Translations under genes and position numbers: made by a program
NCBI GenBank assembly: GCA_029262295.1
Contig: JAJCZR010000006.1
Location: 1-39,587, forward strand
Length of the DNA: 39,587 nt
Origin: Deltaproteobacteria bacterium
GTDB taxonomy: Bacteria; Desulfobacterota_D; UBA1144; Nemesobacterales; Nemesobacteraceae
Reading direction: 5' to 3'
Notes under the pieces: model-generated
The model's database searches: none
Told to the model about the DNA's origin: nothing
The model's input: only the letters and a program-made list of their open reading frames with translations
Part shown: positions 26,632 to 31,321 of the stretch, piece by piece
Numbering within the stretch: position 1 is the stretch's first letter
Layout: every line of letters starts with the position of its first letter

Positions 26632-26901
26632 TTAATCGTCTACTCTTGCGGGCTCAAGTCCTTCTTTTCCTTCAAAATAGTCATAATTCATTTTTGTAAA
26701 TTTTTCCCATTTTTCAGGCACTTCATCTTCATGAAAAATCGCATCCACAGGACAAGGATCCACGCAAGCGCCACAATCAATACATTCATCGGGGTGAATA
26801 AAGAGCTGGTCATCACCTTCATATATACAATCTACAGGGCAGGCCTCAACGCAGGCCTTATCTTTAACTCCGACGCATGGTTCGGATATAATGTAAGTCA
26901 T
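26632..26901 (-). CDS. fdxA: Seven-iron ferredoxin (FdxA-like)
   Basis: 89-residue soluble electron carrier. Cysteines C9, C17, C21, C25, C40, C43, C46 and C50 match the [3Fe-4S]/[4Fe-4S] pattern of Azotobacter FdI-type proteins, including the extra free Cys in CPVDC. The second motif is [12 protein letters not shown]. The acidic tail ([30 protein letters not shown]) resembles that subfamily. GGAGGAGGT lies seven bases before the ATG. It has its own promoter and terminator, so it is monocistronic. The partner is not in the window. Confidence 0.92.
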
Positions 26902-26985: not shown

Positions 26986-27459
26986 CTATTCTGTCTTTGG
27001 AGTTTCATCTGGTGAGTCAATAGTAGTATCAGGCGGATCAGATTTAATCTCAAGATCCAAATCATCGCTCCCAAAAACACCTTTAGGTTCATTTGCAGCT
27101 TCATCAGGATTTGTGATATCTTCTCCTGATTCAAGATCACCTTCATTAACTTCATCTTCAATCACTTCTTCAACAGCCGGAACATCTATTACGCTATCAT
27201 CAACTACAGAAGAACTAATTGATTTAACAGAAAAGTATCCAAGTGTAAGGGACGTGACTATAAAAATAAATGCGAAAAGCCTTGTTAGTTTTACCAAAAA
27301 CGGCACGGCACCAGACGAACCGAACACAGATTCAGAAGAACCTCCACCAAACATAGCGCCAATATCTCCCGATTTACTTGGCTGGACCAAAATAATTAAT
27401 ATTAAAACAACACTCACTATTAAATGAACAATCTTTATTAAAGGTACTAGAAACTCCAA
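26986..27459 (-). CDS. secG: SecG translocase subunit with long acidic tail
   Basis: Inner-membrane subunit of the SecYEG protein translocon. Two hydrophobic helices (IVHLIVSVVLILIILVQ, residues about 9-25, and LFAFIFIVTSLTLGYFS, about 61-77) flank the conserved KSGDIGAMFGGGSSESVFGS motif. An 80-residue acidic C-terminal tail (many Asp/Glu, Pro near the end) follows, making it longer (157 residues) than many SecG proteins. The start must be TTG at 27459: GGGAG is six bases upstream inside the end of tpiA, and no in-frame ATG exists before the first helix. It is coupled to tpiA by a one-base gap. Confidence 0.88.
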   Translation of the reverse strand: MEFLVPLIKIVHLIVSVVLILIILVQPSKSGDIGAMFGGGSSESVFGSSGAVPFLVKLTRLFAFIFIVTSLTLGYFSVKSISSSVVDDSVIDVPAVEEVIEDEVNEGDLESGEDITNPDEAANEPKGVFGSDDLDLEIKSDPPDTTIDSPDETPKTE

Positions 27460-27460
27460 T

Positions 27461-28219
27461 TTATTCTCCCGCAGCTTTTACAATTTTTGAAAATGAGTCA
27501 GCTTTAAGGCTTGCACCACCCACTAGCGCTCCATCAACATTATTACTTGAAATAATTTCATCTATATTCTCTGGCTTTACACTCCCGCCATATAAGACCC
27601 TAATATTATCATCATTTTCACGAAATTTCATTGAAAGCAACTCTTTAATCATAGTATGAACTTCCACAATCTCATTTGGTGTTGCATTTTTGCCAGTGCC
27701 AATAGCCCAAACTGGCTCATAAGCAATAACTATATTTTTAAGCATATCATTATTAACGTCTTTGAGTGCAATTTCAACCTGATTTTCAATTATCTGGTTT
27801 TGAACTCCTTTTTCTCTTTGCTCCAAAGTCTCACCAACACATAAAATAATCTTCAAATCACACTTTAAAGCAAGCTTAACCTTCTTACTTACAAGCTCAT
27901 CAGTCTCACCAATTATCTGGCGCCGCTCAGAGTGGCCAATTATAACCCAGGTGCAATTAAGGTCTTTTAACATAAGGGGTGAAATCTCACCTGTAAAGGC
28001 CCCGGACTCTTCTGGATACATATTCTGGGCACAAAGTTTTATATTGCTTCCCTTTATCAAGTTTCCAACTGCATCAAGCAATGTAAATGGAGGTGCTAAA
28101 ACCACATCAACAGCGCTGTAATCACTTCCAAAATTTTCTATTAGTGAATTCGCAAGCAATTTTGCATCGCTTTTTAAAAGGTTCATTTTCCAGTTTGCAG
28201 CTATCATTTTTTTTATCAT
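27461..28219 (-). CDS. tpiA: Triosephosphate isomerase
   Basis: Glycolytic/gluconeogenic TIM-barrel enzyme, 252 residues. ANWKMN carries the catalytic Asn and Lys; IIGHSERR the catalytic His; AYEPVWAIGTG the catalytic Glu; YGGSVKPEN and DGALVGGASL bind phosphate. All catalytic residues are intact. The start at 28219 lies three bases after the stop of the pgk-like gene, and secG follows after one base, the usual pgk-tpiA-secG order. Confidence 0.96.
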   Translation of the reverse strand: MIKKMIAANWKMNLLKSDAKLLANSLIENFGSDYSAVDVVLAPPFTLLDAVGNLIKGSNIKLCAQNMYPEESGAFTGEISPLMLKDLNCTWVIIGHSERRQIIGETDELVSKKVKLALKCDLKIILCVGETLEQREKGVQNQIIENQVEIALKDVNNDMLKNIVIAYEPVWAIGTGKNATPNEIVEVHTMIKELLSMKFRENDDNIRVLYGGSVKPENIDEIISSNNVDGALVGGASLKADSFSKIVKAAGE

Positions 28220-28222
28220 AAC

Positions 28223-29311
28223 TTAGAGCTCTTCTAATTTTTCCAATACAATAAGATCATTATCCTTGAGATAATCTTGGGCAGCCTCACCTGAAGTTGA
28301 GATGTAATTAAAAAGGTGTTTATATTCGCTTCCTTCTAAAGAAAAACAAGCCTCATCCCCAATTGAGGAAACAAAGGCTTCAAGGCCAACAAATGCAGGC
28401 CCTAAATCACCTATACCCTCCACAGGGCCAAACCATAATATACTTTTTGCATCAGAAAAAACTTTAATTAAGTATTCTACATCATTTGATGGTATTTCAA
28501 ATTTATCAGATGAGTTGATAGCCCCAGCTTTTATTATCTCAATACTTCTTGTTTTTGCTGAAGAAATAAGCTTTTTAACCATGTAAAGCGAATCTTTATC
28601 ATAGTTGCCTGAAAAATCGCTTCCTACTGCTTTACTATAAGAATTGGCCACATCTGCAATCAATACTATCTTATCCACATCTTCAATAAATTTATTTGCA
28701 AACTCAATCTTCTTTGTAACTTCTTTGCCATTAAGAACTATTATGAGGGGCTTTTGAAGACCATTTTTAATATTCCTAAGGTTTTCATACTCATTTTTAA
28801 AATTTAAGCCGATAGCTATTTTTTCTTTATCTAAAACATCTAAAGAAGAATTAAGGGATGCAAAATTTGAATCAGATAATGAGAATGCTTCATTTACATA
28901 ATAATCAATATGATTAGAGATAAATTGCGGAAAATCTTCGGAGTTGTTTAATTCACTTGAGGAAAAAACAAGGTTTTCAAGCAAAATCACTGAGCCAGCT
29001 GGAAGATCAACAACAAGTTTTTTAAACGAATCATTAAAAATATTATCAAGAAAAACAATATCCTTTTCCAGCAAAGTTGAGAGATTTAATCCCACTTCTT
29101 CAAGTGAATACTTTTTATTATTTGAATTACCTATATGAGCACCAATTATTACTTTTGCATTCTCCGAAATTAAATACTTAATTGTCGGAAGGCAATTCTC
29201 AAGTTTAAAATCAAGTATTTTTTTGTTTTCAAGGCTGCCGCAATCAATATCTATACGAACAAAAACCTTTTTATTCTCAAGATCAAGTTCGTCGACTGTT
29301 TTTACTTTCAT
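28223..29311 (-). CDS. Degenerate phosphoglycerate kinase-like protein (probable pseudoenzyme)
   Basis: 362-residue open frame in the usual pgk position before tpiA. The PGK fold is recognisable along its whole length: VFVRIDIDCG, LPTIKYLISENAKVIIGAHIGNS, GSVILLENLVFS, YYVNEAFS, LWFGPVEGIGDLG and ISTSGEAAQDYL. Compared with canonical PGK, key substrate residues differ: Asn of DFN is Asp23, the Arg of the second motif is Lys36, the HLGR Arg is Asn62, the ENLRF Arg is Val115, and the AHRA His-Arg is Asp147-Ser148. The GGAKV lysine is Glu, and GGG near the end is lost. It is unlikely to be an efficient kinase; a true pgk should be elsewhere. The frame is unbroken, so it is not a pseudogene. Confidence 0.82.
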   Translation of the reverse strand: MKVKTVDELDLENKKVFVRIDIDCGSLENKKILDFKLENCLPTIKYLISENAKVIIGAHIGNSNNKKYSLEEVGLNLSTLLEKDIVFLDNIFNDSFKKLVVDLPAGSVILLENLVFSSSELNNSEDFPQFISNHIDYYVNEAFSLSDSNFASLNSSLDVLDKEKIAIGLNFKNEYENLRNIKNGLQKPLIIVLNGKEVTKKIEFANKFIEDVDKIVLIADVANSYSKAVGSDFSGNYDKDSLYMVKKLISSAKTRSIEIIKAGAINSSDKFEIPSNDVEYLIKVFSDAKSILWFGPVEGIGDLGPAFVGLEAFVSSIGDEACFSLEGSEYKHLFNYISTSGEAAQDYLKDNDLIVLEKLEEL

Positions 29312-29341
29312 TGTTTTTCACTACTCAGGATAAGTATTTAC

Positions 29342-30475
29342 TCAGGATAAGTATTTACCCAGTTTTTCAATACCACTCTTTATTGAATCTATAGATGTTG
29401 CATAAGAAAATCTAAGATAGTCATTTCCTCTTTCGCTAAAATCAATACCAGGAGTTACGGCAACTCCTGTGTTTTCAAGAATATCAAAGGCAAATTTATA
29501 AGAATCTTTTGAAAATCTGCTTGAGTTAACAAATATATAAAATGCGCCCATAGGTTCATAAGAAAACTCAAAACCTATAGATTTAAGCGCTTCCAACATT
29601 GCTACCCTTCTCTCATTAAAAAGTTTTGCTATGTCCCCTGATTTTATTTTAATCTTCTCAAGTGCTTCCACGCCCGCCATCTGCACAAAAGGGTTTGCAG
29701 AAATAAACAGGTTTTGCTGAAGTTTTTGAACATATCTAACCAGGTTTGGAGGGACTATCATGTATCCAAGCCGCCAACCGGTCATAGAATAAAGCTTTGA
29801 AAAACCACTCACAACAATGGCATTATCTGTAAATTCCAAAATTGTATTTTCCTTTTTTCCATAAACAAGGCCATGATATATTTCATCGGATATTATTAAC
29901 TGGCCAAGATCACAAACCTTTTGCATAGTTTCCTTTTCAAGCAAAGTTCCAGTTGGATTAGAAGGAGAATTAACAAGAATTGCTTTTGTCTTACTATTAA
30001 TACTTTTCTTTAAAAGTTTTATATCTATTTGATATCCATCTTCTTCATGAATCGCAACTTTTTTTGAAACGCCCCTTGCAACACTTATAATCTGAGGATA
30101 ACACGCATAGTAAGGATCAGTAATTATAATTTCATCCCCAGGATCAAGAATTGTAAGCATGGACATTAAAAGGGCCGGAGAACTACCAATTGTTATAATT
30201 ACCCTCTCATGACTTACTTGAACTCCATAGGTGCGTTTATAATCATCAGCAATGGCATTGCGAAGTTTCTCAATTCCGAGGCTGCTTGAATACTTTGTAA
30301 AACCGTCATCAATTGATTTTACCGCTGCAGCGCATATTTCAGCAGGGGTACTAAAATCAGGCTCACCAACTTCAAAGTGAAAAACTTCTTTTCCACTAGC
30401 TTCAAGCCTATTGGCCTCTTCCAGAATATCCATCACATAAAAAGGGGATATATTCTTTACAAGATCTGAAATCAT
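29342..30475 (-). CDS. Class I/II PLP-dependent aminotransferase (AspC-like)
   Basis: 377-residue fold-type I aminotransferase. Landmarks: VGEPDFSTP near residue 40, YSSSLGIEKLRNAIA, SNPTGTLL with the PLP-contact Asn, ISDEIYHGLVY with the Asp/Tyr pair, the PLP lysine in SGFSKLYSMTGWRLGY near residue 228, and FLRFSYA-type end with the carboxylate Arg (DYLRFSYATS). It is similar to aspartate/aromatic aminotransferases; exact substrate is not assignable. It lies seven bases after def and 30 bases before the pgk-like gene. Confidence 0.9.
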   Translation of the reverse strand: MISDLVKNISPFYVMDILEEANRLEASGKEVFHFEVGEPDFSTPAEICAAAVKSIDDGFTKYSSSLGIEKLRNAIADDYKRTYGVQVSHERVIITIGSSPALLMSMLTILDPGDEIIITDPYYACYPQIISVARGVSKKVAIHEEDGYQIDIKLLKKSINSKTKAILVNSPSNPTGTLLEKETMQKVCDLGQLIISDEIYHGLVYGKKENTILEFTDNAIVVSGFSKLYSMTGWRLGYMIVPPNLVRYVQKLQQNLFISANPFVQMAGVEALEKIKIKSGDIAKLFNERRVAMLEALKSIGFEFSYEPMGAFYIFVNSSRFSKDSYKFAFDILENTGVAVTPGIDFSERGNDYLRFSYATSIDSIKSGIEKLGKYLS

Positions 30476-30482
30476 ATTTAAT

Positions 30483-30986
30483 TCAAATAAAGGCCTTTTT
30501 AATTTTTTTCACAAGAAGTTCTCGTTTAAGCCTTCCAAGCCTCTCAAAAAAAAGTATTCCATCAAGATGGTCTATTTCATGTTGAAGCACTCTTGACAGT
30601 AAATCTGAAGCTTCAACAGTTATTTCTTCACCATCTCTATTAAGTGCCTGTACTTTTACATTTAGTTTTCTATTAACGTTTGCCACAAATCCCGGAACAC
30701 TTAAACAGCCTTCTTCACCAAGTTGTGAACCATCGGAATCAATAATTTCGGGGTTAATTAGTTCAATCAGGTTTTTTTCTTCACTATCCTGTGGTGTAAT
30801 ATCAACAGTTAAAACCCTTATATTTTCCCCAACTTGAGGTGCAGCAAGCCCTACTCCCGGTGCATCGTACATCGTTTCGGCCATATCATCAAGAAGCAAC
30901 AATAAACTATTATCTATTTTATCTACTGATTTTGACTTTTTTTTTAATTTTTGATCCGGATAGATCAGGATATCTAGTAAAGGCAT
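30483..30986 (-). CDS. def: Peptide deformylase
   Basis: Removes the formyl group from nascent N-terminal Met. The 167 residues contain all three motifs: GVGLAAPQVG, EEGCLSVPG with the metal-binding Cys, and QHEIDHLDG with two metal-binding His and the catalytic Glu. It begins at 30986, 47 bases after ihfB. No fmt is adjacent. It is encoded in a leftward operon with an aminotransferase and glycolytic genes. Confidence 0.96.
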   Translation of the reverse strand: MPLLDILIYPDQKLKKKSKSVDKIDNSLLLLLDDMAETMYDAPGVGLAAPQVGENIRVLTVDITPQDSEEKNLIELINPEIIDSDGSQLGEEGCLSVPGFVANVNRKLNVKVQALNRDGEEITVEASDLLSRVLQHEIDHLDGILFFERLGRLKRELLVKKIKKAFI

Positions 30987-31033: not shown

Positions 31034-31321
31034 TTAAAGATCTTCATCATTATTGACTTTCTTTATTAGATCTTTACTTGGTCTGAAATGTGGTAATTTT
31101 TTACTTGGTACAGTTACTGGTTCACCAGTTCTGGGGTTTCTGCCATCATAAGCGTCATAGCTCTTTGTATAAAAACTTCCAAAACCTCTAATTTCAATTC
31201 TTCCTTCATCTTTCAGCACATCTGTCATATGATCAATAATTGTATCCAGTATGCTCTCAGATTGGGTCGACTGAAGATTAAACTTCTCTGATAGTTCTTT
31301 TTCTATTTCTGATCTAGTCAT
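31034..31321 (-). CDS. Integration host factor / HU-type DNA-binding protein (IHF beta-like)
   Basis: 95-residue nucleoid protein of the HU/IHF family. It begins MTRSEIEKELSEKF (IHF-beta-like) and continues to the conserved GRIEIRGFGSF core and the beta-arm YDGRNPRTGEPVTVP, with the intercalating Pro in NPRTGE, then LPHFRPSKDL. It may bend DNA as an IHF subunit; an IHF-alpha partner is not in the window. It is the first gene of the leftward operon, with a good promoter. Confidence 0.9.
   Translation of the reverse strand: MTRSEIEKELSEKFNLQSTQSESILDTIIDHMTDVLKDEGRIEIRGFGSFYTKSYDAYDGRNPRTGEPVTVPSKKLPHFRPSKDLIKKVNNDEDL

Follow-up and report, generated by a model that had tools for sequence, protein, structure and literature searches.

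Inactive phosphoglycerate kinases and related systems

Catalytically inactive phosphoglycerate kinases (PGKs), many of them with extra domains, have been described in kinetoplastids and in a diplonemid (PMC7729029, PMC4106842). The kinetoplastid PGKL proteins, with T. brucei TbPGKL as an example, resemble the bacterial protein considered here, designated PGK2, in being predicted inactive, in occurring clade-wide, and in standing beside a working PGK (PMC4106842, PMC7729029), while unlike PGK2 they are eukaryotic, multidomain (CNB, HTH, and membrane segments), bound to the axoneme, without a link to tpiA, and of independent origin. In the null mutant tested TbPGKL was non-essential (PMC4106842).

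Two other systems are useful for comparison. In the Thermotoga PGK-TIM fusion (NF010569; cited in PMC7729029), which has an active PGK, pgk precedes tpi and PGK is physically joined to TIM; in the present case the two are separate proteins from separate ORFs. Hexokinase 2 (HXK2) of T. brucei is inactive unless co-expressed with HXK1 (cited in PMC4106842), and such an inactive glycolytic paralogue acting via an active partner may serve by analogy as a model for PGK2, although enzyme, fold, and organism are different. A search of open-licence literature found no report of a bacterial non-catalytic PGK or of PGK in Dadabacteria, and none on PGK Lys mutants. The PGK pseudoenzyme is a kind known from kinetoplastids, and PGK2 is not a new kind.

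The PGK homologue upstream of tpiA

The window, i.e., the whole analysed stretch of 39,587 nucleotides, carries on its minus strand an intact PGK homologue with an ATG start and no internal stops, which lies in the following row of genes:

31034..31321, minus strand: HU/IHF-like DNA-binding protein, member of the conserved neighbourhood
30483..30986, minus strand: def (peptide deformylase), member of the conserved neighbourhood
29342..30475, minus strand: class I aminotransferase, constant upstream neighbour of PGK2
28223..29311, minus strand: PGK2, PGK-fold protein of 362 amino acids with the 3-phosphoglycerate (3PG) and nucleotide site residues lost
27461..28219, minus strand: tpiA (triosephosphate isomerase, TIM), 3 bases downstream of PGK2
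26986..27459, minus strand: secG, small membrane protein of SecG-like sequence with homologues at the equivalent place in relatives
26632..26901, minus strand: ferredoxin, at the conserved end of the row

PGK2 belongs to the PGK family (PF00162, EC 2.7.2.3), its match to the Pfam profile covering residues 6-275 and scoring 173 bits (E=1.2e-50) where 27 would suffice. It consists of a single PGK domain with no other Pfam match, and so the added CNB, HTH, or membrane domains of kinetoplastid PGKL are absent from it; its best NCBIfam match is the fusion family NF010569, at 161 bits against a cut-off of 883, far below what a PGK-TIM fusion would give. AlphaFold2 models the window protein with confidence (pLDDT 85.6, pTM 0.86), the model of an f3 member being confident too, and the top PDB matches in Foldseek are PGKs (TM 0.87 to 3q3v and 0.88 to 1php), hence the two-domain fold and the domain order of PGK are predicted. 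By sequence the closest PDB entry is Thermotoga maritima PGK 1vpe, while identity is about 24-25% to the PGK of the same genome (PGK1) and 26-37% to other PGK2s.

In canonical PGKs Arg38 is a member of the 3PG basic patch and Lys215 is the GGAK lysine, with a role at the phosphate. Arg65, Arg122, and Arg170 act on the 3-phosphate, together with His62 and Asp23/Asn25, and the functional elements of the C-domain are the Lys, the GGG motif, and the Asp-Mg (PMC7729029). Alignment of the window protein with PGK1 of the same genome (labels in human-type numbering) demonstrated that the 3PG basic patch of an active enzyme, Asn25/Arg38/His62/Arg65/Arg122/Arg170, reads D, K, H, N, V, and S, owing to the changes N25->D23, R38->K36, R65->N62, R122->V115, and R170->S148. 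The GGAK lysine and the GGGD loop, which serve the phosphate and the Mg-nucleotide, are likewise not those of an active PGK: K215 is replaced by glutamate (E197), the loop reads I-G-D-E, and further losses are H169->D147, D374->E, G373->D, and G396->E, while two C-domain deletions removed the LPxD loop and E343. Retained are D21 (D23), H59 (H62), K201 (K219), and W293-x-G-P, as well as 31 of the 58 columns that are conserved at 95% or more in canonical PGKs. Changes at N25, R38, R122, R170, K215, or G373 were found in none of 74 non-Dadabacterial PGKs; therefore the losses of the window protein exceed chance. Homology to an enzyme combined with lost catalytic residues is what a pseudoenzyme would show, and the sequence of PGK2 strongly supports a non-catalytic protein.

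The first-pass annotation of this DNA had already named the clean full-length frame, the five 3PG-site replacements, the glutamate in place of the GGAK lysine, and the altered late GGG loop, and all of these readings were correct. Its placement of the gene between the aminotransferase gene and tpiA, followed by secG, and in translational packing with tpiA, agrees with the gene row given above, the packing being tighter still in relatives.

Conserved gene neighbourhood

As far as contigs reach, all 23 PGK2 genes occupy a common slot, HU/IHF-def-aminotransferase-PGK2-tpiA-secG-ferredoxin-nth-radical SAM, in which tpiA is the invariable downstream neighbour (23/23 genomes). A 4-base overlap joins the end of PGK2 to the start of tpiA in 21 of the 23 genomes, the exceptions being the window with its 3-base gap and G017 with a 1-base gap, and from this gene packing it appears that PGK2 and tpiA are on a shared transcript. 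The window tpiA is the sole TIM detected in its genome. When PGK2 is missing from a genome, tpiA is coupled directly to the aminotransferase gene or a gap is left. Because the pgk-tpiA-secG order is widespread, an upstream pgk being common elsewhere in bacteria (L108, L122, L130, L159), PGK2 occupies the site where an ordinary pgk often sits.

The junction between the aminotransferase gene and PGK2 is a 30-base spacer in the window and a 4-base overlap with the PGK2 start in most f3 relatives. A direct repeat CTTATCCTGAGTA with period 17 lies at positions 29312-29351, at the aminotransferase stop codon, and forms a part of this spacer, which is absent from most f3 relatives. In one f1/g2 locus (L094, G013:C4) frame changes break both tpiA and the aminotransferase gene, probably as a result of assembly error, and in G015 (f2, 88% complete) there was no tpiA match, which reflects either an assembly gap or true absence of TIM.

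Distribution, clade, and canonical PGKs of the order

Among 44 genomes from a single order of Candidatus Dadabacteria, 23 have PGK2. It is missing from all 14 genomes of f8, the sister order, where the six tpiA loci that were read have the aminotransferase-tpiA-secG-ferredoxin row without it. Within the order the gene row is present and intact PGK2 is missing in f1/g2, f6, G028, and G022. In a tree of 86 proteins a branch with SH-aLRT 100 had all 23 PGK2 rows on one side, and the clade of Dadabacterial PGK1 was distinct from them. The end branches of PGK2 are long (1.38 for the window and 1.89 for G017, those of f4 and f7 also being long), and as a result the inner order of the clade is uncertain. 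Horizontal arrival in the window genome alone is ruled out by the common slot and the single clade.

G022 has, in the 0.8 kb that separate its aminotransferase gene from tpiA, a PGK2 relic (L088:1490-2320) of stop-ridden fragments, one piece of which was matched by tblastn at E=1.8e-5 and another at 48% identity over 31 amino acids. A short PGK2-like remnant, recognized by eye only, lies at the same place in G028 (L087:4900-5290). In this lineage PGK2 has truly decayed, which provides an internal control for the look of decay.

The expectation of the first-pass annotation that a true pgk would be found elsewhere in the genome was borne out: the window genome (98.8% complete) encodes PGK1 at G000:C68, with 495 bits to Pfam PGK and all ligand residues intact, in a gap-pgk-fba row. 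The same row surrounds PGK1 wherever its surroundings were read, and a canonical PGK is present in 43 of the 44 genomes, that of G043 being only a contig-end fragment, and the 44th genome is 59% complete. Dadabacterial PGK1 (L001:1468-2664) groups with Nitrososphaerota and Bathyarchaeota PGKs at SH-aLRT 100 (L133, L150, L156, L160, L170, L173, L176), which suggests an old transfer between domains. That PGK2 arose by copying of Dadabacterial PGK1 is unsupported, since PGK2 does not share the position of PGK1 beside the Nitrososphaerota PGK in the tree; the deep origin of PGK2 is blurred by its long branches.

A third, fully canonical PGK (PGK3), sister to Dadabacterial PGK1, was observed in three f5 genomes, G028, G022, and G034 (L084:5080-6276, L085:5531-6730, and L086:5134-6333), two of which are without intact PGK2.

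Staged loss of the active site and shifted constraint

The PGK2 families differ in how much of the active site has gone. The five f5 proteins are invariant at D23, N25, R38, H62, R65, R122, H169, R170, K219, and D374, and in all five K215 is replaced by N/S, the third glycine of GGGD (G373) by W, and G396 by Q/K. Throughout f3, f4, f7, and the window protein N25 is replaced by D, and R122, R170, and K215 are all lost. The N25D change is found in 18 of 18 non-f5 PGK2s and R38K in 16 of the 18, while f3 proteins have an acid (D/E) at R122 (14/14) and mostly Q at R170 (12/14) and retain G213, G214, P338, and E343 of the nucleotide site. At R65, R122, R170, K215, and D374 no replacement is common across the families. 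Read from the living species, these states suggest that phosphoryl transfer was lost first (GGAK lysine and GGG loop, the f5 state) and the 3PG site second (f3, f4, f7, and window).

Constraint has shifted as well. The conservation percentile of the 3PG-site columns is 50 in f3 and 59 in all PGK2s, i.e., that of an about average column, against 14 in PGK1. Ranked conservation dropped most at the GGGD loop with its helix (window residues 314-330) and at the STGGG loop (334-346). Gains lie at PGK2 residues 86-107 and 242-258, in two segments with coordinates taken from residue numbers:

28994..29056, minus strand: N-domain helix, PGK2 residues 86-106, relative conservation gained
28538..28588, minus strand: C-domain helix end, PGK2 residues 242-258 (YxxKKLxSSxxxRxI), relative conservation gained

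In max-statistic shuffles against all canonical PGKs the strongest segments reached a family-wise P of about 0.001-0.002, and against other phyla alone the two gained segments had P 0.006-0.008. Against Dadabacterial PGK1 alone the gain at 88-100 had P<0.001, partly reflecting unusual PGK1 variability there, and the gain at 242-257 was weak (P 0.04-0.2). R255 is invariant in 23/23 PGK2s and differs from the canonical residue. Judged from these conservation patterns, both helices are candidate binding surfaces.

It may be proposed that PGK2 is a re-specialised enzyme or a ligand-binding protein with the cleft rebuilt for another substrate, which would explain the fixed replacements at N25, R38, R122, and R170 and the nucleotide-site residues retained in f3. 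This explanation is unlikely, because the replacements at R65, R122, R170, K215, and D374 are not shared across families, the 3PG-site columns are of only average conservation, the nucleotide loops are the very region of greatest conservation loss, and the window copy is in addition deprived of the LPxD loop and E343. Still less probable is that f5 PGK2 continues to work as a perhaps slow PGK and only the f3, f4, f7, and window proteins are inactive: its invariant 3PG-site residues, K219, and D374 would fit, but the changes at K215, the third GGGD glycine, and G396 are present in every f5 protein, and K215 or G373 is changed in none of the 74 other PGKs.

In the 14 closest pairs of PGK2s, including f3 and f7 pairs without the 3PG site, pairwise NG86 dN/dS was 0.09-0.22, against 0.05-0.29 for tpiA in those pairs. 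Purifying selection is seen in the relatives by dN/dS; for the window copy the sign of it is solely that the frame has stayed open along a long branch. In neutral simulation of the window sequence without indels no frames were open at 0.2 substitutions per site, compared with 1.38 for the end branch of this protein. Slow death of a redundant, functionless gene, which the gradual loss of catalytic residues, the absence of PGK2 from several lineages, the G022 relic, and the long branches of the window, f4, and f7 might recall, is very improbable in view of these values, which remain low even in pairs with dead sites, of the 23 intact frames, and of the newly conserved segments, while the lineage where PGK2 did die shows stops and fragments. 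For f3, f5, and f7 simple decay is largely refuted. There is equally little to recommend the view that the frame is kept only to deliver ribosomes to tpiA with the protein idle, since the 4-base overlap by which it is prompted requires an open frame but no particular sequence, the amino-acid constraint equals that of tpiA in several pairs, and without PGK2 tpiA manages with the aminotransferase gene or with a gap.

According to these data the proposal of the first-pass annotation, a conserved PGK that is non-catalytic or re-specialised, gains support from synteny, monophyly, purifying selection, and residue loss, so far as sequences can indicate; the checks of dN/dS and residue conservation that it suggested gave low ratios and losses staged across families, and the scattered frameshifted homologues by which it would have recognized decay are not the pattern.

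Proposed role as a binding protein

It is very likely that PGK2 does a job other than catalysis. The best explanation, to which a probability of about 0.62 can be given, is that PGK2 is a PGK pseudoenzyme, passed on vertically, which works through binding and has TIM or PGK1 as its possible partner. Judging by the tree, by synteny, and by the graded loss of residues, the order would have carried two PGKs, namely PGK1 in the gap-pgk-fba row for glycolysis and gluconeogenesis and PGK2 upstream of tpiA-secG. With catalysis covered by PGK1, PGK2 would have given up phosphoryl transfer and afterwards the 3PG basic patch, its fold still remaining under purifying selection. Produced in translational coupling to TIM, it would work by binding and most likely dock on a glycolytic partner, TIM in the first place and PGK1 in the second, via helices 86-107 and 242-258, and the docked protein would alter the activity, stability, or placement of this partner. 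The intact 3PG site of f5 would make the action of PGK2 responsive to 3PG, an input that would be gone in other families, while the nucleotide side of f3 proteins keeps some conservation (DT, WxGP), so that these may bind nucleotide.

A more specific and tentative version of the pseudoenzyme reading, with rather low odds, is that f5 PGK2 is a 3PG-binding, non-catalytic metabolite sensor for its co-translated TIM or for PGK1, and that in its f3 and window descendants the basic patch would have given way to a pocket of acidic or neutral character, together with a new surface for protein binding.

Coupling of PGK2 with TIM by evolutionary rate was rejected. When distances of tpiA, aminotransferase, def, HU, secG, ferredoxin, nth, and PGK1 were compared between lineages with and without PGK2, there was no TIM-specific acceleration after PGK2 loss: TIM does evolve faster in f1/g2 than in the window, but the acceleration of def, HU, and PGK1 equals or exceeds its own. 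With this negative result the link between PGK2 and TIM is left to gene order and translational coupling, and the loss of PGK2 in f6, f1/g2, G022, and G028 means that it is dispensable for TIM.

Significance

Profile searches and gene order call PGK2 a pgk, and metabolic models of Dadabacteria would count a second enzyme, which should be taken as an annotation warning. PGK2 has been kept across the order while a working PGK is also present, and the sequence in which the sites were lost is sampled by species alive today, making it a testable case of a core glycolytic enzyme becoming a binding protein. If the sensor reading is true, the family would offer a natural step-by-step record of the passage from enzyme to regulator.
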